From: a virus
Virus record (IMG/VR): IMGVR_UViG_3300011253_001008
Span: 1 to 37,701 of that record
Length of the DNA: 37,701 nt
Direction: 5' to 3' (one strand)
The notes beneath the pieces were generated by a model. The model searched no databases, had not been told where the DNA came from, and saw nothing but the letters and a program-made list of their open reading frames with translations. Below, piece after piece: positions 17,592 to 30,431 of this stretch. Made by a program: the position numbers and the translations under genes. Positions within the stretch are counted from its first letter, which is position 1. Each line of letters opens with the position of its first letter.

Positions 17592-17971
17592 TGCGCGGCG
17601 TGATCCTGACCTGGTGCGCGCTTTCCGTCCTGGCCATGCTGGCCGGATGTAGCCCGGCGGCCAAGCTGGCGGCCCAGGCCGTGAGCGGCGGCGCGCCCGA
17701 TGTGGCCGCCAATGTGGTGGTGGGCAAAGAGGCCAGCCAGACCCTTGGCCAAACCATTAACCGCCGCCCCCAAGCCCGCGACATTGCCGCGCAAACCGTG
17801 CGCCAATCGGCCGATCAAAACCGCGTGGCCGCGGATCGGGTGGAGAGTGTTGTGGTTAATGAGGGGCCAAGCCTCTGGATGATGATTTTGGTGGCCTTGC
17901 TGGTGCCCAGCCCCGTGCAATGGGCGCAGGGCTTTGCGGTGCGCCTTTGGAAACGATTGGGATTTATCTGA
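17591..17971 (+). CDS. Lipoprotein, candidate unimolecular spanin
   Basis: This 126-residue protein has a lipoprotein signal with lipobox LAGC (Cys20) at the N-terminus and one C-terminal transmembrane helix (LWMMILVALLVP region, residues about 95-112). In between is a soluble Ala/Gln/Arg-rich helix. An N-terminal outer-membrane lipid anchor plus a C-terminal inner-membrane helix is the layout of u-spanins such as T1 gp11, which fuse the two membranes in the last lysis step. It follows the endolysin with a TGATG overlap. No separate Rz/Rz1 pair is seen. The function is inferred from topology and position. Confidence 0.65.
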   Translation: MRGVILTWCALSVLAMLAGCSPAAKLAAQAVSGGAPDVAANVVVGKEASQTLGQTINRRPQARDIAAQTVRQSADQNRVAADRVESVVVNEGPSLWMMILVALLVPSPVQWAQGFAVRLWKRLGFI

Positions 17972-19215
17972 TGTTGACGGACAAACAGCGAGAAACCCTG
18001 CGCTTGCACAATGATGAGGGCTTGAGTTTTGCCGAGATCGCCAAGCGCCTGGGCGTTGCAAAACAGACAATTTCACAGCGTTACAAGGTGGCCACCCAAA
18101 AGCTGGCCGACAAAAAGGCCAGCCTGGATCCCGGGGTGCATAAAACCCTGGCGGGCCTGGGCATGGGCGATATGGCGGGCCAGCATTCGGGCTGGGTGCA
18201 TAAGGAAAACCCAGATACTGGGGAATGGGCCAGCGTCTATTATTTCCTTGGTAAAGACGGTGCGCCCAATGAGGTGGATCTTGAGGAAATGGTGGGCCGG
18301 GCCATCGCCCGCGCCACTGAGGGGATCCAGGCCCCGCCCAATCCCCTTTCCCCCGCTGGCCTCGGGGATCACTTGCTGGTGGTTGATATTGCGGATCTGC
18401 ACATTGGCAAGCTTTGCGTCAAATCAGAAACCGGCTTTCACTATGACCGGGCCGAGGCCCTGCGCCGCGGCCGCCACGGCTTGCGCGCGCTTTTGACCCG
18501 TGCCCAGGTGATCGGGGTGGCGCACATCCTCTTTGTGATCGGCAATGATGTTGTGCATATCGACAACCCCCGCGGCGAAACCACCTCAGGCACCCCTCAG
18601 GATACCGATGGCACCCAGGCGGTTATGTTTGATGATGCCCTGGCGTTCTACACCGCTTGCATTGAGGAATGCCGCGCGGTGGCCCCGGTGTCCATTCTCT
18701 ATTGCCCCTCAAATCACGATTGGTTCACCGGGTTCACTTTGGCCCGAGCCTTGCGCGCGATCTATGCGGATGCCGATGGGGTGGAGGCCAGTGAATATGC
18801 CACCAGCCATAGGCACCGCAAATACTTTGCATTTGAGCGCAACTTGATCGGTTTCACCCACCACGATGGTGCAAAGGAAAAGGATCTGCCCGATCTCATG
18901 GCGCTGGAATGTATTGGGCACCTGGACAAGCGCCCGCGGCGCTATTGGTATCTGCACCATATGCATCACAAGATCCGCAAGCGCGGCCGCGCCTCTGAGC
19001 GCCGCCAGGTGGAAAAGGATCACATTGGGTTTACGGTGATCCAGGGCAAGGCCGGTTTGACCGAAACCACCGCCCCCGAGATTGAGGTGGTGCGATCCCC
19101 CAGCCCACCCGATGGCTGGCATGATCGTAATGGCTACGTGAACGCCCAGGCGGTGGAGTGTTTCTTGCACCACCCGGCCGATGGCCAGGTGGCCCGCTTT
19201 ACCGAGTGGTTTTGA
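17971..19215 (+). CDS. HTH-fused metallophosphatase
   Basis: This 414-residue protein starts at the ATG in a TGATG overlap with the spanin gene. Residues about 1-50 hold a sigma-like helix-turn-helix (GLSFAEIAKRLGVAKQTISQ). The rest is a calcineurin-type metallophosphoesterase: DIADLHIG (D-x-H), GNDVVH, PSNHDW (the N-H-D motif), FTHHDGAK and LHHMHH supply the usual metal ligands. Phage members of this family are annotated as DNA or RNA phosphoesterases of unknown substrate. Placement next to SSB and a nucleotide kinase suggests work on nucleic acid. The DNA-binding domain is an unusual addition. Confidence 0.8.
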   Translation: MLTDKQRETLRLHNDEGLSFAEIAKRLGVAKQTISQRYKVATQKLADKKASLDPGVHKTLAGLGMGDMAGQHSGWVHKENPDTGEWASVYYFLGKDGAPNEVDLEEMVGRAIARATEGIQAPPNPLSPAGLGDHLLVVDIADLHIGKLCVKSETGFHYDRAEALRRGRHGLRALLTRAQVIGVAHILFVIGNDVVHIDNPRGETTSGTPQDTDGTQAVMFDDALAFYTACIEECRAVAPVSILYCPSNHDWFTGFTLARALRAIYADADGVEASEYATSHRHRKYFAFERNLIGFTHHDGAKEKDLPDLMALECIGHLDKRPRRYWYLHHMHHKIRKRGRASERRQVEKDHIGFTVIQGKAGLTETTAPEIEVVRSPSPPDGWHDRNGYVNAQAVECFLHHPADGQVARFTEWF

Positions 19216-22048: not shown

Positions 22049-22767
22049 GCGCCCCCGAAATCACCACCGAGCAGCTTTGGAATGTGAAAACACCCCCGGG
22101 CATAGAGGCCATTGAGGCGGCCCTGGATGTTTATGATGCCCTTGAGGCGCTCAATGCGGTGCTGGATGCGGCGGGCACATTTGAGGCAATTGGCCCCTTA
22201 CGGCGGCCCTGGGCGTTCCGCCGCGCGCTGGAAACGGATCCGGCGATTGGGGCGGCCTGGGCTGAATTGGAGGCCCGCGCCCTTGAGGCGCGCCGGATCG
22301 GTTTGACCAAGGTGGGCGGCTGGCTTGCCCCGCCTGAATTTGACGCCGCCGGGCATATGCTCTTTGAAATGGCCGCCCCGATCACCCGCCAGCAAGTGGC
22401 CGCCCGAGAAAAAGGCGGCCCCATTGAAATGCTGGATCACGCCGCTGGCTTGGGCATGGTGGCCAAATATGGCGGCCGGATCCTGCACTGGTGCGATGAT
22501 GCCGAGGCCGGGGCCGCGGCGCTCAATGCTTATATGGATGCGCGCTTGCCGCCCCATGCTGAGGGCACCGGCTGGCACCTGGACGGGGAACGGCTCATGC
22601 CAAGTTCTGGCTTTGGCGAGATCTATGTGGGCTGGGGGCCAATGCGGCCGCGATTGTTTGCCCGCACCTTTGACGCCTGGATGGGCGCAAGCCCGCCCCC
22701 TGAGGCCCTGGCCCGTGTCACCGGCACCCGGCTGGCGGATGTGTTTACTGGGAAAGGCGGTGTTTGA
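22045..22767 (+). CDS. Unknown 240-residue protein
   Basis: I do not recognise this protein. The first 90 residues are acidic and helical (IEAIEAALDVYDALEALNAV). The middle contains MLDHAAGLGMVAKYGGRILHW, and the end has SGFGEIYVGWGPMRPRLF. It has no transmembrane segment or signal peptide. It is co-translated with both neighbours (ATGA upstream, TGATG downstream), so it should work with them. Confidence 0.7.
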   Translation: MSAPEITTEQLWNVKTPPGIEAIEAALDVYDALEALNAVLDAAGTFEAIGPLRRPWAFRRALETDPAIGAAWAELEARALEARRIGLTKVGGWLAPPEFDAAGHMLFEMAAPITRQQVAAREKGGPIEMLDHAAGLGMVAKYGGRILHWCDDAEAGAAALNAYMDARLPPHAEGTGWHLDGERLMPSSGFGEIYVGWGPMRPRLFARTFDAWMGASPPPEALARVTGTRLADVFTGKGGV

Positions 22768-23015
22768 TGAATTGCCCAGAACATTTAATTTTGGATCTGC
22801 GCTATCTGAGGATTTGGCACATTCAACGGGCTGATGTGCCGCGCCAGTATGTCACGCGGCGAGAAATTCTAAACCCTCTGAGGTATGAGATCATTTTGAA
22901 GGCACCAGGGAAATGGTGGTGCTGGAATGAAGATGCTTGGATGAACCGGGCCGCCTCTAACATCTGGTTCCGCCTATGGGGGTACCGGAAATACAAGCGA
23001 AAGGGCCGCAAATGA
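22767..23015 (+). CDS. Unknown small basic protein
   Basis: This 82-residue protein is Trp- and Arg-rich, with KAPGKWWCWNEDAWMNRAAS and the basic end GYRKYKRKGRK. I know no function for it. It starts in a TGATG overlap at 22767 and overlaps the next gene by four bases. The basic C-terminus could bind nucleic acid. Confidence 0.65.
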   Translation: MNCPEHLILDLRYLRIWHIQRADVPRQYVTRREILNPLRYEIILKAPGKWWCWNEDAWMNRAASNIWFRLWGYRKYKRKGRK

Positions 23016-23493: not shown

Positions 23494-23609
23494 TTTTCAA
23501 CGTGTCAACAATACCGGCACATTTTTCAACACCCTGTTTTCTATAGCGATAGGCCGAATTGATAACGCCATCGCAGAGGGCGGGGAAACAAAACAAAGGA
23601 CCGACTGAC
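23494..23609 (+). promoter_or_regulatory. Intergenic region before the small-gene cassette
   Basis: This AT-richer gap holds two copies of TTTTCAAC (23494-23501 and 23523-23530), a TATAGC -10-like element at 23542-23547 with a weak -35, and AAAGGA before the ATG at 23610. The direct repeats are candidate sites for the HTH protein encoded at the end of the cassette. Confidence 0.4.
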
Positions 23610-23894
23610 ATGAACCACATCCGAACATGGGCGCAGGGCCAGTTTGTTGATCATGCCCGATACCAATCTCTCGGAGAGACTTGGAAAGAGGGTCGGCGGC
23701 GTGAGGAAACGCACTTAGTGCGCCCCGGACCGACAGAAAATGCGATCTGCCACTGCCCCGACCCGCGCCATGCCAAGTGGATTGCTGACCGTCTCAATCT
23801 CGCCTCCAAGCTAGAGCAAATGACCTATGATTTTGCCACCGGAAAAACCGACGAGGCGGAGATCGTGAACTTCGTCCGCAGCAACATCGACTGA
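23610..23894 (+). CDS. Small cassette protein 1 (unknown)
   Basis: This 94-residue protein has a basic N-terminal half (GETWKEGRRREETHLVRPGP) and a C-terminal half NAICHCPDPRHAKWIADRLN then LEQMTYDFATGKTDEAEI. The second half resembles small plasmid and phage proteins that carry 'C.......A..IA..LN.A..L'. The function is unknown. AAAGGACCG is the leader motif. Asp is often GAC here, unlike the GAT-rich structural genes. Confidence 0.7.
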   Translation: MNHIRTWAQGQFVDHARYQSLGETWKEGRRREETHLVRPGPTENAICHCPDPRHAKWIADRLNLASKLEQMTYDFATGKTDEAEIVNFVRSNID

Positions 23895-23905
23895 AAGGAC
23901 CGATC

Positions 23906-24112
23906 ATGACCGATCTAACCGAAGAAGAGTTCACTAAACGGTTTACAGCACACGCATTGAAACAATGCGGCTTCACCCATTTCGATGATGGAACATCGGT
24001 TTCAGACTACTGCGCGGAAGTTGGGCCCTCGTACTGGAAAGACAAAAACTACAGCAGCGAAGGCCCTGAGACATGCGCGGAAGCGGACATGGATTATTGG
24101 GGCGAAGAGTAG
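23906..24112 (+). CDS. Small acidic cassette protein 2 (unknown)
   Basis: This 68-residue protein is strongly acidic, with TEEEFTKRFTAHALKQCGFT, DDGTSVSDYCAEVGPSYW and the end CAEADMDYWGEE. The leader TGAAAGGACCGATC includes the stop codon of the gene before it and the ribosome site. Small, very acidic proteins of this kind are frequent among phage anti-defence proteins that mimic DNA, but no homology shows that here. Confidence 0.68.
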   Translation: MTDLTEEEFTKRFTAHALKQCGFTHFDDGTSVSDYCAEVGPSYWKDKNYSSEGPETCAEADMDYWGEE

Positions 24113-24134
24113 AGCAACTGAAAGGACGGACCAA

Positions 24135-24530
24135 GTGTTAGACGTTTGCTGCAATGACCCTGATACAGGCAATTTCGACGGTAGAGCCTACGGCCTGTCA
24201 CTGGGCTGCATCGAACTTGAGCCGCGTCGAACTCCCCCACGATTTGTCCTGACAGACAAAGGCTTTCGCCTTGCTGGCAAGGAGTGGCCTGTCACTGCCA
24301 GCAAAGACTGGTACGGCAACTGGTGCTGGAACAGATACCGGATATCGGATGGTAAAACTGAGTATGCGGTGATGCTCGCGCGGTTCATGTTTTGGCTTAA
24401 AGGTCGCAAGCTGTTCACCTGCACGACTGGGCCCGATCCATTCTTCATGTGGTTCGATGATCGCTTCAAAGAGATGGAGTACAACGTGCCAAAACTGGCC
24501 GCTCTACTCGCCAAAGAAATTCATACCTGA
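24135..24530 (+). CDS. Cassette protein 3 (unknown)
   Basis: This 131-residue protein uses GTG at 24135, preceded by CTGAAAGGACGGACCAA, the same leader as its neighbours; longer in-frame starts would overlap the preceding gene. It is rich in aromatic residues (KDWYGNWCWNRYRISDG, MLARFMFWLKGRKLF, FFMWFDDRFKEMEY) and has several Cys. No family is recognised. Confidence 0.65.
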   Translation: MLDVCCNDPDTGNFDGRAYGLSLGCIELEPRRTPPRFVLTDKGFRLAGKEWPVTASKDWYGNWCWNRYRISDGKTEYAVMLARFMFWLKGRKLFTCTTGPDPFFMWFDDRFKEMEYNVPKLAALLAKEIHT

Positions 24531-24546
24531 AAAAGGACCGGATCGG

Positions 24547-24801
24547 ATGCGAACCACATTCCATGATTTCAAACGGGCAGATGGCTCCGAGGTCACAGTT
24601 GAATACGGCTTTTATGGCGGCTCTGAAACGACCTACTCCCCGCATTCCGGTGCGTGTGGCGGTGATGCGGCAGAAGTTGAGATAGTGACTGCGTTTGACG
24701 ACAACGGCGATGTCAAACTGACGGATGCAGAAGCCGAAACTGTCGAGGCGGAAATCCTTGAGAACCCACCAGAATGGGACGATCAGGACTATGATCTATG
24801 A
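24547..24801 (+). CDS. Small acidic cassette protein 4 (unknown)
   Basis: This 84-residue acidic protein has a beta-rich N-terminal half (VTVEYGFYGGSETTYSPHSG) and a helical acidic C-terminal half (TDAEAETVEAEILENPPEWD) ending DDQDYDL. The leader is TGAAAAAGGACCGGATCGG. The four-base overlap with the HTH gene that follows couples their translation, as in several anti-CRISPR/Aca pairs. Confidence 0.68.
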   Translation: MRTTFHDFKRADGSEVTVEYGFYGGSETTYSPHSGACGGDAAEVEIVTAFDDNGDVKLTDAEAETVEAEILENPPEWDDQDYDL

Positions 24802-25025
24802 ACTGGTTTGCCGCACATCGGCAGGACTGGATCGCCGACATGCTGGCCGTCTACGGCTTTATCAATCGGTTTCACCTACGCCGCAAATTCGGGATTTCCG
24901 CCGCGCAGGCCGCGATTGATTTCCGAGCCTTCAACGAGGCGAACCCAGATGCGATGCGTTACGACCCACGCAAGAAAATCTACTACGCCAAGGATGCGCC
25001 AAAGGTGCTCTTGGATAACACCTGA
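24798..25025 (+). CDS. HTH protein, candidate cassette regulator (Aca-like position)
   Basis: This 75-residue protein is mostly a winged-helix-like DNA-binding domain: DWIADMLAVYGFINRFHLRR then FGISAAQAAIDFRAFNEANP and RYDPRKKIYYA. The pattern resembles the N-terminal HTH of WYL regulators. It is the last full gene of the cassette and is co-translated with an acidic small protein (ATGA). A short HTH protein closing an operon of small unknown proteins is the hallmark of Aca regulators. The HTH is seen in the sequence; the autorepressor role is inferred. Confidence 0.7.
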   Translation: MNWFAAHRQDWIADMLAVYGFINRFHLRRKFGISAAQAAIDFRAFNEANPDAMRYDPRKKIYYAKDAPKVLLDNT

Positions 25026-25038
25026 AAAAGGACCGTTT

Positions 25039-25062
25039 ATGTGGCCGTTTGGCCCTGAATAG
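25039..25062 (+). CDS. Seven-codon mini-ORF with cassette leader
   Basis: ATGTGGCCGTTTGGCCCTGA encodes M-W-P-F-G-P-E followed by TAG. It carries the same TGAAAAAGGACCG leader as the four preceding genes. It may be the remnant of a deleted cassette gene, or a leader peptide. The shared leader is the only evidence for translation. Confidence 0.35.
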   Translation: MWPFGPE

Positions 25063-25091
25063 TCCCCACCCCCGATCTGCTAATGTCACCG

Positions 25092-25125
25092 CCCGCCCCT
25101 CAAAAGGGGGCGGGTTCTTGCTTTT
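25092..25125 (+). terminator. Terminator closing the small-gene cassette
   Basis: CCCGCCCC (25092-25099) pairs with GGGGCGGG (25107-25114) around a seven-base loop, followed by TTCTTGCTTTT. It separates the cassette from the virion gene downstream. Confidence 0.78.
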
Positions 25126-27540: not shown

Positions 27541-29082
27541 ATGACAGGTTTTGCCCCGTTTGGCGCTGCGGCCTTTGGTGATGAGGGCGGCGGCGGGTCT
27601 ATTGATGGCACCGGCGCTGGTACCCAGGCGGCGCAAACCGGCACCGGCACCGGCGCTGGCCGCCATACCGGCACCGGCACCGCGGCCAATCCAGGCCAAA
27701 GCGCGATCGGGGCAGGGCAGGGCACCGGCACCGGCGCGGGATCCGGCCTCACCCCGCCGCAATCCAGCACTGGCGCTGGCGCTGGCGTAGCCTCTGGCGC
27801 GGGATCCAGCGCCCAGACCGCTCAGACCGGCACCGGCGCGGGTGCGGTGCGCCTCACCTCAACCGGATCCGGCCTCAATCCCGCCCAGGCCGCCAGCGGC
27901 ACCGGCGGGGGCATTGTCTCGGGCGCGGGATCCAGCGCCCAAGCCGCTCAGACCGGCACCGGCGCAGGTGCGGCCCGCCTCACCTCAACCGGATCCGGCC
28001 TCAATCCCGCCCAGGCCGCCAGCGGCACCGGCGGGGGCATTGGCTCGGGCGCGGGATCCAGCGCCACCCCAGCCCAAACTGCGACCGGCACCGCCGCGGG
28101 CCTGGTGTCTGGCACCGGATCCGGCCTCACCCCAGCCGAGGCCGCCAGCGGCACCGGCGCGGGGCTTGCCTCGGGCGCGGGATCCAGCGCCACCGCGGCC
28201 CAAACCAGCACCGGCACCGGCGCTGGCCTGGTGTCTGGCGCGGGATCCGCCCTCACCGCCGCCCAGGATGCCAGTGGCACCGGCGCGGCCCGCCTCACCT
28301 TTACCGGATCTGGCTTCAATCCGGCCCAAACCGGCGCGGGCGCGGGCGCGGGCATTGCCTCGGGCGCGGGATCTGGCCTCACCCCGGCGCAGATGGGCAC
28401 CGGCACCGGCGGCGCGTTCCTTGCCGCGGCTGGTGAAAACCCGGCCCAGACCGGCACCGGCACCGGCGCGGCCCTGGCCTCGGGCGCGGGATCCGGCGCA
28501 AGCCCCGCTCAATCCGCCAGTGGTGCGGCCGTAGGTGTTGTCTCGGGGTCTGGATCCGGCACAACCCCGGCCCAGGATGCCAGTGGCACCGGCGCGGGGC
28601 GTCTTAATTTCGCGGGATCCGGCCTCACCCCGGCCCAGGTCGCAACCGGCACCGGCGGGGCGGCGGCCTCTGGCGCGGGATCCGGCACAAGCCCGGCTCA
28701 ATCCGCCAGCGGTGTGGCCGCGGGTGTTGTCTCTGGATCCGGATCCGGCCTCACCCTGGTGCAGATCGGCACCGGCACCGGCGCGGCCGTTCTTATTTTT
28801 GCCGGATCCGGCCTCAATCTGCCCCAGATCGGCATGGGCACCGGCGCGGGCCTGGTTTTTGGCACGGGCACGGGGATTTCCCCGGCGTTTCAGGCCCGGG
28901 GCTTTGGCACCCAGCCCAGCACCCGCCGCGTGGCAAGCCAAGGCAGCGCCAGCCAGGGCGCGCTTGGTGGTGCGGCGTCTGGCAATACAAGTTCTGGATC
29001 CTCGCCCGGCAATGCCGCCGGGGGATCTCATGGCGCCAACACCGCGGCCGGGGATCTAGGCCCCAATACCGCCGCGGCCTAA
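27541..29082 (+). CDS. Gly/Ala/Ser/Thr-rich protein with about twenty 21-residue repeats
   Basis: This 513-residue protein has a short head (MTGFAPFGAAAFGDEGGGG), then about 20 tandem units of 21 residues spanning residues about 20-455, and a different C-terminal tail rich in Ser/Gly/Asn (SGSSPGNAAGGSHGAN). The unit has the form GAGSGLTPAQ, a variable pair, then (S/T)GTGAG and a hydrophobic pair. One unit (starting AAGENPAQ) is two residues short. The regular hydrophobic and Gly positions suggest a glycine-rich solenoid or polyglycine-II-like shaft. TAGGAGG gives it a strong ribosome site. It is in the fibre module, so an adhesin or fibre tip is likely. I know no named family with this repeat. 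Confidence 0.7.
   Translation: MTGFAPFGAAAFGDEGGGGSIDGTGAGTQAAQTGTGTGAGRHTGTGTAANPGQSAIGAGQGTGTGAGSGLTPPQSSTGAGAGVASGAGSSAQTAQTGTGAGAVRLTSTGSGLNPAQAASGTGGGIVSGAGSSAQAAQTGTGAGAARLTSTGSGLNPAQAASGTGGGIGSGAGSSATPAQTATGTAAGLVSGTGSGLTPAEAASGTGAGLASGAGSSATAAQTSTGTGAGLVSGAGSALTAAQDASGTGAARLTFTGSGFNPAQTGAGAGAGIASGAGSGLTPAQMGTGTGGAFLAAAGENPAQTGTGTGAALASGAGSGASPAQSASGAAVGVVSGSGSGTTPAQDASGTGAGRLNFAGSGLTPAQVATGTGGAAASGAGSGTSPAQSASGVAAGVVSGSGSGLTLVQIGTGTGAAVLIFAGSGLNLPQIGMGTGAGLVFGTGTGISPAFQARGFGTQPSTRRVASQGSASQGALGGAASGNTSSGSSPGNAAGGSHGANTAAGDLGPNTAAA
27598..28905 (+). repeat. 63-bp tandem repeat array (21 codons), about 20 units
   Basis: Units share GCGGGATCCGGCCTCACCCC-like starts and ACCGGCACCGGCGCGGGC-like centres. 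Two neighbouring pairs (around 27810-27960 and 27930-28060) are almost identical, showing recent duplication of a two-unit block. The consistent GGATCC at the Gly-Ser codons puts a GATC in nearly every unit. Confidence 0.88.
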
Positions 29083-29097
29083 CAAGAGGATATTGAA

Positions 29098-29421
29098 ATG
29101 GGATTTTATATGGCCGAGGGTAACACCAGCCCAGCCCTTGAGCAAACTTTACGCGATGGCGCGGGCGGGGCGGTAAACCTCACCGGGGCCACAGTGGTGT
29201 TTCGGATGGTGCCGCTTGAGGGCGGGGATCCGGTGACCGGCACCGCCTCAATCCAATCGGCCGAGGGCGGGGTGGTGCGCTATCCTTGGGCGGCCGGTGA
29301 TACCGATCTGCCCGCCACCTACCGGGTTTTTTGGGATGTGACCTTTGCGGACCTTAGCACTGAGACATTTCCCAATTCGGCCCTGGCGGCCGAGTGGGTG
29401 GAGGTGGCCCCCACCGCATAG
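29098..29421 (+). CDS. BppU-like baseplate/fibre N-terminal domain protein
   Basis: This 107-residue protein matches the BppU N-terminal-type beta domain (ALEQTLRDGAGGAVNLTGAT, VVFRMVPLEG, YPWAAGDTDLPATYRVFWDV), which attaches receptor-binding parts to the tail. AGAGG lies before the ATG at 29098; an in-frame ATG at 29110 is possible. The last 103 bases overlap, on opposite strands, the 3' end of the integrase gene. Confidence 0.78.
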   Translation: MGFYMAEGNTSPALEQTLRDGAGGAVNLTGATVVFRMVPLEGGDPVTGTASIQSAEGGVVRYPWAAGDTDLPATYRVFWDVTFADLSTETFPNSALAAEWVEVAPTA

Positions 29422-30431
29422 GCTGGCCCCGCGCCGGTTTGGGTAAAATCCCACCCGTGCGCCATGAGGCGGGCGGATAGATCGGCCGGGGCAATCTTGC
29501 GGTATCGCTGCGCCATATCCGCCTTGCGCCAGCCCCCAAGATCCAAGAGCCCGCCAAAATCGCGGGTTTGGCTATAATACCAGGTGGCCCAGGTGTGGCG
29601 CAGAACATGCGGCGTCACATCTGCCCCAAGCCCCGCCAGATCTGCGGCCTTGCGAAACGCCCCCGAGATCTGGCCGCCACCATTTTCCCGAATTACATAT
29701 GCCCGCCCCTTTGGGGTGCGGCAAATTGGCCCCGCCTCAGGGATCCCGGCCGCGGCAATCATGTGCTGGGCGCGCCGGGGGAATTTGACCATGCGCGGGT
29801 GACCGTTTTTGGTGGCGGGCAAATATGCCTCACCCGTGGCCGGATAATAAAGCGCGGCGTCAATTGTGAGCGCCTCGCCCACCCGGCACCCACCCCCCAA
29901 GAGCATCCCCAGGACCGGCACCAGGTGCGGATCCGCGGCCGCTATAAGCCGCTCACTTTCCTCTGGGGTGAGCCAGCGGGTGCGCGCCACATCGCCCTTG
30001 CGGCGGCGGAATTTGCGGTAATGGGTGAGGCCCTCATCTGCGGCCAAGGTGACAACGGCCGAAACCGGCGTGATCAATTGCCGGTTGATGGTGGCGGCGC
30101 TGGCATTGGGGTAGATTTTGGCGGCCGCGCGATTAACTGCGGCATTGTCAACTTCCGCCAGGCGCATATCGGGACCAAAAAACCGGATGATTGGCCCGAG
30201 AAACCGCGCCTCCCCGCCGGTTTCCATATACGTGGCGGCGGCCTCTGCGAAGGTTATAAGGTGATCCCGGCCGTGGGCTTTGGCCGCGTGGATCTCATCG
30301 CTGCGGCGTTTGGCTATCGCCTCTGCCGTGGCGCGGTGGCCAGTGCCAGTGCTTTCATATATGCGTTGTCCCTGGACGGTGCCGCGGATGTAGTAATTGC
30401 CGCCTTTTTGCCGCCGGTGGAGTTTAAGCAT
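29319..30431 (-). CDS. int: Tyrosine-recombinase integrase
   Basis: This 370-residue protein should integrate the phage at the host attB. Residues 1-60 are an arm-binding/AP2-like region (GNYYIRGTVQGQRIYESTGT). Residues about 60-145 form the core-binding domain. The catalytic domain shows R183 in GGGCRVGEAL, K208 in ATKNGHPR, H275 and R278 in HVLRHT, and the nucleophile Y310 in AQRYRK. The usual second His is replaced by Trp (GGWRKADM), a known variant. The last ~45 residues, after AHGWDF, extend past the usual end and lie opposite the BppU-like gene. The start overlaps the xis frame by 118 bases. Confidence 0.95.
   Translation of the reverse strand: MLKLHRRQKGGNYYIRGTVQGQRIYESTGTGHRATAEAIAKRRSDEIHAAKAHGRDHLITFAEAAATYMETGGEARFLGPIIRFFGPDMRLAEVDNAAVNRAAAKIYPNASAATINRQLITPVSAVVTLAADEGLTHYRKFRRRKGDVARTRWLTPEESERLIAAADPHLVPVLGMLLGGGCRVGEALTIDAALYYPATGEAYLPATKNGHPRMVKFPRRAQHMIAAAGIPEAGPICRTPKGRAYVIRENGGGQISGAFRKAADLAGLGADVTPHVLRHTWATWYYSQTRDFGGLLDLGGWRKADMAQRYRKIAPADLSARLMAHGWDFTQTGAGPAYAVGATSTHSAARAELGNVSVLRSAKVTSQKTR

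Follow-up and report, generated by a model that had tools for sequence, protein, structure and literature searches.

The repressors CapW and BrxR, built of a wHTH, a WYL and a WCX domain, control CBASS, BREX and other defence islands (PMC9122588, PMC9122589, PMC9122601), and are a switch common to many bacterial immune systems. The ligand is proposed to bind at the WYL site, and in CapW the R32A mutant and the S42/Q45/S47 triple mutant identified residues needed for DNA binding (PMC9122588). In the full-length CapW/BrxR proteins, binding of single-stranded DNA relieves repression (PMC13373217). In the Aca families examined, inverted repeats in the core promoter are general (PMC9410906).

In this work, we have analysed a window of 37,701 bp, the whole of a virus record, in which a cassette of five small genes ends in a gene (gene 5) whose product resembles both kinds of regulator. 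Like CapW and BrxR, which are its only solved PDB relatives, gene 5 has the wHTH fold and the conserved Arg/Ser/Gln contacts. Unlike them, it is phage-borne, measures 75 aa instead of about 290, has neither the WYL sensor nor the WCX domain, stands beside no recognisable defence gene (the other cassette genes have no PADLOC match) and follows a probable promoter region that has no operator palindrome of about 20 bp above chance. Like Aca1 to Aca10 (PMC9410906), it is a short HTH protein of a phage, encoded last in a row of small co-directional genes, but it is of the CapW/BrxR type and in its relatives the gene lies mostly in mid-operon. Again unlike Aca operons, the cassette has no core-promoter palindrome of CapW/BrxR size and no Acr recognisable by Pfam, PHROGs, NCBIfam or PADLOC, although one unlisted in these four libraries may be present. 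The first-pass annotation had proposed an anti-CRISPR/Aca operon; the row of small genes with a terminal, co-translated HTH gene is there, whereas membership of an Aca family is not supported, no solved Aca being found among the PDB matches of gene 5 or of its 43-member profile. We therefore file gene 5 neither as an Aca nor as a CapW/BrxR protein proper; it is a reduced CapW/BrxR variant that may work like an Aca.

A foreign small-gene operon in a temperate phage

The record carries genes for a terminase, an HK97-type major head protein, a tape measure protein and an endolysin, and the head, tail and lysis genes together with the integrase and the primase-helicase (Table 1) identify a temperate tailed phage. 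The cassette (23610-25025) consists of five genes on the + strand, with the sizes and the single direction first described. Genes 2 and 4 code for very acidic proteins (pI 4.24, net charge -11, and pI 4.05, net charge -18), whereas gene 5 is basic (pI 9.69). The overlap between genes 4 and 5 bears out the co-translation of the terminal HTH gene with an acidic protein.

Table 1. Features of the cassette and of the surrounding phage genome (window coordinates)
Feature	Position	Strand	Remark
Probable promoter region, intergenic, before the cassette	23494..23609	+	largest gap in the gene row
Short inverted repeat CTAT-AGCG-ATAG, candidate operator	23541..23552	.	weak, post hoc
Gene 1, 94 aa, phage early-region family	23610..23894	+	
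Gene 2, 68 aa, acidic	23906..24112	+	integrase-side relatives in phage-like regions
Gene 3, 131 aa	24135..24530	+	GTG start; motifs CNDPD and DWYGNWCWN
Gene 4, 84 aa, very acidic orphan	24547..24801	+	leader; ATGA overlap with gene 5
Gene 5, 75 aa, stand-alone CapW/BrxR-type wHTH	24798..25025	+	without WYL/WCX
Fifth leader copy (AAAGGACCG) and 7-codon ORF (MWPFGPE)	25027..25061	+	
Intrinsic terminator-like hairpin and T-run	25091..25125	+	closes the cassette
Tyrosine integrase	29319-30431	-	
Primase and D5-type helicase	32.5-35.4 kb		

The composition of the block differs from that of the phage. Its GAC:GAT ratio is 19:22, whereas the main genes of the phage have 77:346 (Fisher p = 1.4e-4). 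Scored by the codon usage of the phage, the block has a log-likelihood of -0.08 and the main genes have +0.13 to +0.38, a range that leaves out the likewise low ORF at 22764-23015. A leader, AAAGGAC[C/G]G (AAAGGACCG), precedes genes 1 to 4 and a 7-codon mini-ORF (25038-25061), and no further copy was found on either strand of the 37.7 kb; gene 5 has no leader of its own because it overlaps gene 4. The mini-ORF and the leader before it may be what is left of a sixth cassette gene, lost at the junction. The terminator-like hairpin stands in a region where such sites, taken as a whole, show no excess over shuffles. The deviant codon use, with its many GAC codons, and the distinct leaders had been reported at first pass, as had a probable separate acquisition of the block. 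The first two are borne out, and the last is supported by codon use, the private leader, the block's own terminator and relatives in unrelated phages. There is good support for viewing the cassette as an accessory operon of foreign origin that includes a stand-alone DNA-binding protein of the CapW/BrxR type.

The intergenic region before the cassette has a GC content of 47%, lower than the roughly 60% of most phage genes, and gave no match in a scan for the sigma70 consensus. The only inverted repeat there is of 4+4 nt, at 23541; its CTAT-N4-ATAG pattern is also found 5΄ of the HTH operon in L002, with a chance of about 0.006 in shuffles of that region for a pattern picked after looking. No palindrome of CapW/BrxR size (about 20 bp) in 23494-23609 exceeded chance (p about 0.98), and a palindrome search in 42 upstream regions of the stand-alone wHTH family showed no enrichment.

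None of the five proteins had a significant match in Pfam, PHROGs, NCBIfam or PADLOC. The nearest relatives of the cassette genes are found in Alphaproteobacteria, mainly in elements of the Roseobacter group, and the conserved relatives of genes 1, 2, 3 and 5 mark these as real genes. The functions named for neighbours of the relatives of genes 1 to 4 are, where no library was scanned, our reading of the sequences. Gene 1 has relatives (61-70% identical) in the early regions of four phages: near NinB-like, HNH and cytosine-methylase genes in L007, near a beta clamp and a ParB-like gene in L008, 5΄ of an excisionase and an integrase in L009, and between the beta-clamp and ParA genes in Aurantimonas phage AmM-1. 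Gene 2 had no relative in the viral contigs and three in bacterial genomes (L021, L096, L097), each with an integrase close by; in L021 it lies in one row with a gene for a stand-alone wHTH protein, next to the integrase. Besides L018, nine viral relatives of gene 3 are known; they keep the invariant motifs CN.PD, KxW and GNWCWN, and their neighbours include a beta clamp and a RusA-like gene. Its AF2 model is confident (pLDDT 90.5) and found no analogue among PDB folds (best E 0.48). Gene 4 had no relative in the viral contigs, nor in 298 genomes, the latter in a search run with no positive control. The phage family to which gene 3 belongs, noted in L098, L099, L100, L101, L103, L104, L106 and L006, has the motifs CNDPDNG and KEWYGNWCWN.

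The surroundings had been described as an operon on the attP side upstream and fibre genes downstream. The former claim finds no support: the putative fibre genes separate the cassette from the integrase, a gene of the - strand, and an attP was not identified. The latter is plausible for 25.2-29 kb, where the genes gave no family match. Relatives of the genes flanking the cassette, sought for an empty-site comparison, were not found, so an empty site cannot be demonstrated. A 513-aa ORF (27541-29082) with Gly/Ala/Thr/Ser-rich repeats (GTGTGAG...) codes for a putative repetitive surface protein. Just upstream of the cassette, the small ORF at 22764-23015 departs from the phage both in its codon use and in its GC (50%), and is possibly a second foreign gene. 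Further upstream, 17920-19215 codes for a DNA repair exonuclease family protein (PHROG 704) that adjoins the endolysin and has an N-terminal match to a sigma-factor-like HTH.

Gene 5 is a CapW/BrxR-type wHTH without the sensor

Compared alone with all PDB chains, gene 5 matched only CapW and BrxR (E 2e-4 to 0.94), and the 43-member profile reached CapW at 1.8e-17 and BrxR at about 1e-5. The 15 best PDB matches of its AF2 model (pLDDT 88.7) are all CapW or BrxR (TM 0.75-0.86), a result not independent of the sequence comparison, the model having been built from a largely overlapping alignment. Structure prediction, suggested at first pass as a check on the products, thus gave gene 5 the CapW/BrxR fold and left the gene 3 model with no PDB counterpart. 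All 43 members of the profile have Arg24, Ser34 and Gln37, which align with Arg32, Ser42 and Gln45 of Sm CapW; the fourth CapW residue, Ser47, is Ala39 in gene 5, so that three of the four are kept.

The WYL domain is missing, the 75-aa frame being bounded by a stop codon and the gene 4 overlap and having no WYL match, and so is the WCX domain, since in the model the protein stops after the wing and a short helix. CapW dimerises via domains that gene 5 lacks, and DNA binding by the 75-aa protein must therefore rest on other contacts. Judged by its anatomy, gene 5 would be a signal-blind repressor: with WYL and WCX missing, it should repress regardless of the single-stranded DNA signal. A role as an excisionase was considered and rejected, gene 5 lying 4 kb from the integrase and most of its relatives elsewhere; the sole hint of it is the integrase beside the wHTH gene in L012 and L021.

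A scan of viral contigs with the gene 5 sequence alone gave no match, and an alignment query was needed. This query reached 65 viral loci, some of them near-duplicates, of which 64 code for stand-alone proteins and one for a protein of 272 aa that includes a WYL domain. The stand-alone proteins correspond to no family in Pfam or PHROGs, and the Pfam copy used also has no model for the wHTH of their full-length relatives. Bacterial genomes present the opposite picture: 298 genomes of the family to which the Roseobacter relative G001 belongs gave 69 profile matches in 60 genomes, with open frames of 266-373 aa in 65 of the 69, and two of the four short ones lie at contig ends. Among the proteins encoded next to 28 of the full-length regulators are a CBASS-type patatin effector, type I restriction, McrBC, GmrSD, GajB-like helicases and integrases. 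A tree of 78 domains, based on 69 columns and with several long branches, groups all the stand-alone proteins in a single clade (support 89). Going by these sequences, the phage form looks like an old lineage, separate from the sampled host proteins, and this clustering led us to reject a recent truncation of a host regulator.

The neighbourhoods of the phage form are extremely varied. By gene calls made with a simple script, a same-strand gene precedes the stand-alone gene in 49 of 54 cases and overlaps it in 24, 4 nt being the commonest overlap, and the median length of the upstream neighbour is 89 aa; a same-strand gene follows in 43 of 55, which makes the usual position mid-operon. The association of the HTH gene with other small genes, which the first-pass annotation had proposed to search for, is seen in the small upstream neighbours, while the terminal position is not the rule. 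Among 111 near neighbours, Pfam recognised two Lar restriction-alleviation genes, one Dam and one C5 methylase, and three integrases, with many unknowns besides; the Lar and methylase numbers, taken as raw counts, would fit accessory cassettes in which anti-restriction genes occur.

Possible roles of the operon

We propose that the block is an acquired accessory operon whose last gene codes for a repressor that is blind to ligand, with the cassette itself as its most likely target and host defence promoters as a possible one; we give this reading about an even chance. The block would have come from other temperate phages, its small genes drawn from early, replication or integrase-side clusters, most with their own ribosome-binding leader and with a terminator at the end. 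The last product would be a CapW/BrxR-type DNA-binding repressor cut down to its DNA-binding domain, which, as an Aca would, most likely restrains the cassette once it has been expressed early or during lysogeny. Genes 1 to 4 may have a short role at the start of infection, possibly in taking over the host or in counter-defence. We infer repression, its target and the function of these four genes. Several points count against this reading: neither the promoter region nor the upstream regions of the family show a CapW/BrxR-size palindrome beyond chance, the family gene is usually in mid-operon, Ser47 of CapW is replaced by Ala39, and the domains through which CapW dimerises are missing. In a second reading, possible and still on the unlikely side, the cassette is an ordinary early-gene module with no defence role, gene 5 being a Cro-like or timing regulator and genes 1 to 4 helpers of replication or integration. 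The company kept by the relatives of gene 1 (beta-clamp, ParB, NinB-like, excisionase and integrase genes), gene 2 (integrases) and gene 3 (beta-clamp and RusA-like genes) would suit such a module, as would the very diverse neighbours of the wHTH family. The block is, however, foreign in composition and lies away from the phage's primase-helicase and repressor region, which argues that it is not the core switch of this phage.

A classical anti-CRISPR operon, in which one or more of genes 1 to 4 inhibit CRISPR-Cas or another defence and gene 5 is the Aca, appears unlikely. The small genes, two of them very acidic, the basic terminal HTH gene co-translated with an acidic one, and the two Lar-type genes and the Dam and C5 methylases among the 111 neighbours speak for it. 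Nevertheless, Pfam, PHROGs, NCBIfam and PADLOC provide no link to a known inhibitor, the relatives of genes 1 to 3 lie in generic early regions, the promoter has no palindrome of repressor size, and Lar and methylase genes are common in phages. It is also doubtful that gene 5 acts in trans, occupying CapW/BrxR-type operators of the host and silencing defence islands during infection with no release by single-stranded DNA. Here the DNA-contact residues common with CapW and the loss of the sensor domains would fit, as would the presence in 60 of the 298 related genomes of a match, nearly always full-length, and the defence genes near the 28 regulators (CBASS-type patatin, type I restriction, GajB-like, McrBC and GmrSD). 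On the other side, the clade of stand-alone proteins, apart from the sampled host proteins (support 89 on 69 columns), indicates that these are not recent host copies. Improbable as we consider it, the general form of this idea would be a widespread, unnamed phage family of WYL-less CapW/BrxR proteins acting as signal-blind repressors of host defence islands. If true, CBASS, BREX or restriction genes would be silenced at transcription just when infection should activate them. Our literature searches found no report of a phage family that keeps only the DNA-binding half of CapW/BrxR, and the stand-alone family offers a direct test of phage control of immunity at the level of transcription. Its gene is also a marker for finding variable small-gene cassettes in phages.

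Related gene rows

The cassette can be compared with the Phaeobacter phage-plasmids pP18_f and pP24_g (L003, L004) and with the phages L028 and L029, where a stand-alone wHTH protein, 70-73% identical, likewise lies within rows of small genes with a repeated leader. These differ from the cassette in their leader (CCCCTTTGATGGAGA) and in the companions of the wHTH gene, which are Dam-type and cytosine methylases and a MazG-like gene; relatives of genes 1 to 4 were not seen in these four rows. The rows are variable, with CCCCTTTGATGGAGA before many of their genes, and look like a modular cassette array. A gene row of another phage, L025 (83% identity), holds two stand-alone CapW-type wHTH paralogues (L025:1327-1554 and L025:2334-2546). 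The second copy has a changed recognition helix, with Ser at the position of Gln37, which suggests, as far as sequence can tell, different DNA targets. The two Phaeobacter phage-plasmids also carry a LuxR/LuxI-type quorum-sensing pair (L003:35217-36450 and L004:36275-37508), annotated as an autoinducer-binding protein and an acyl-homoserine-lactone synthase.
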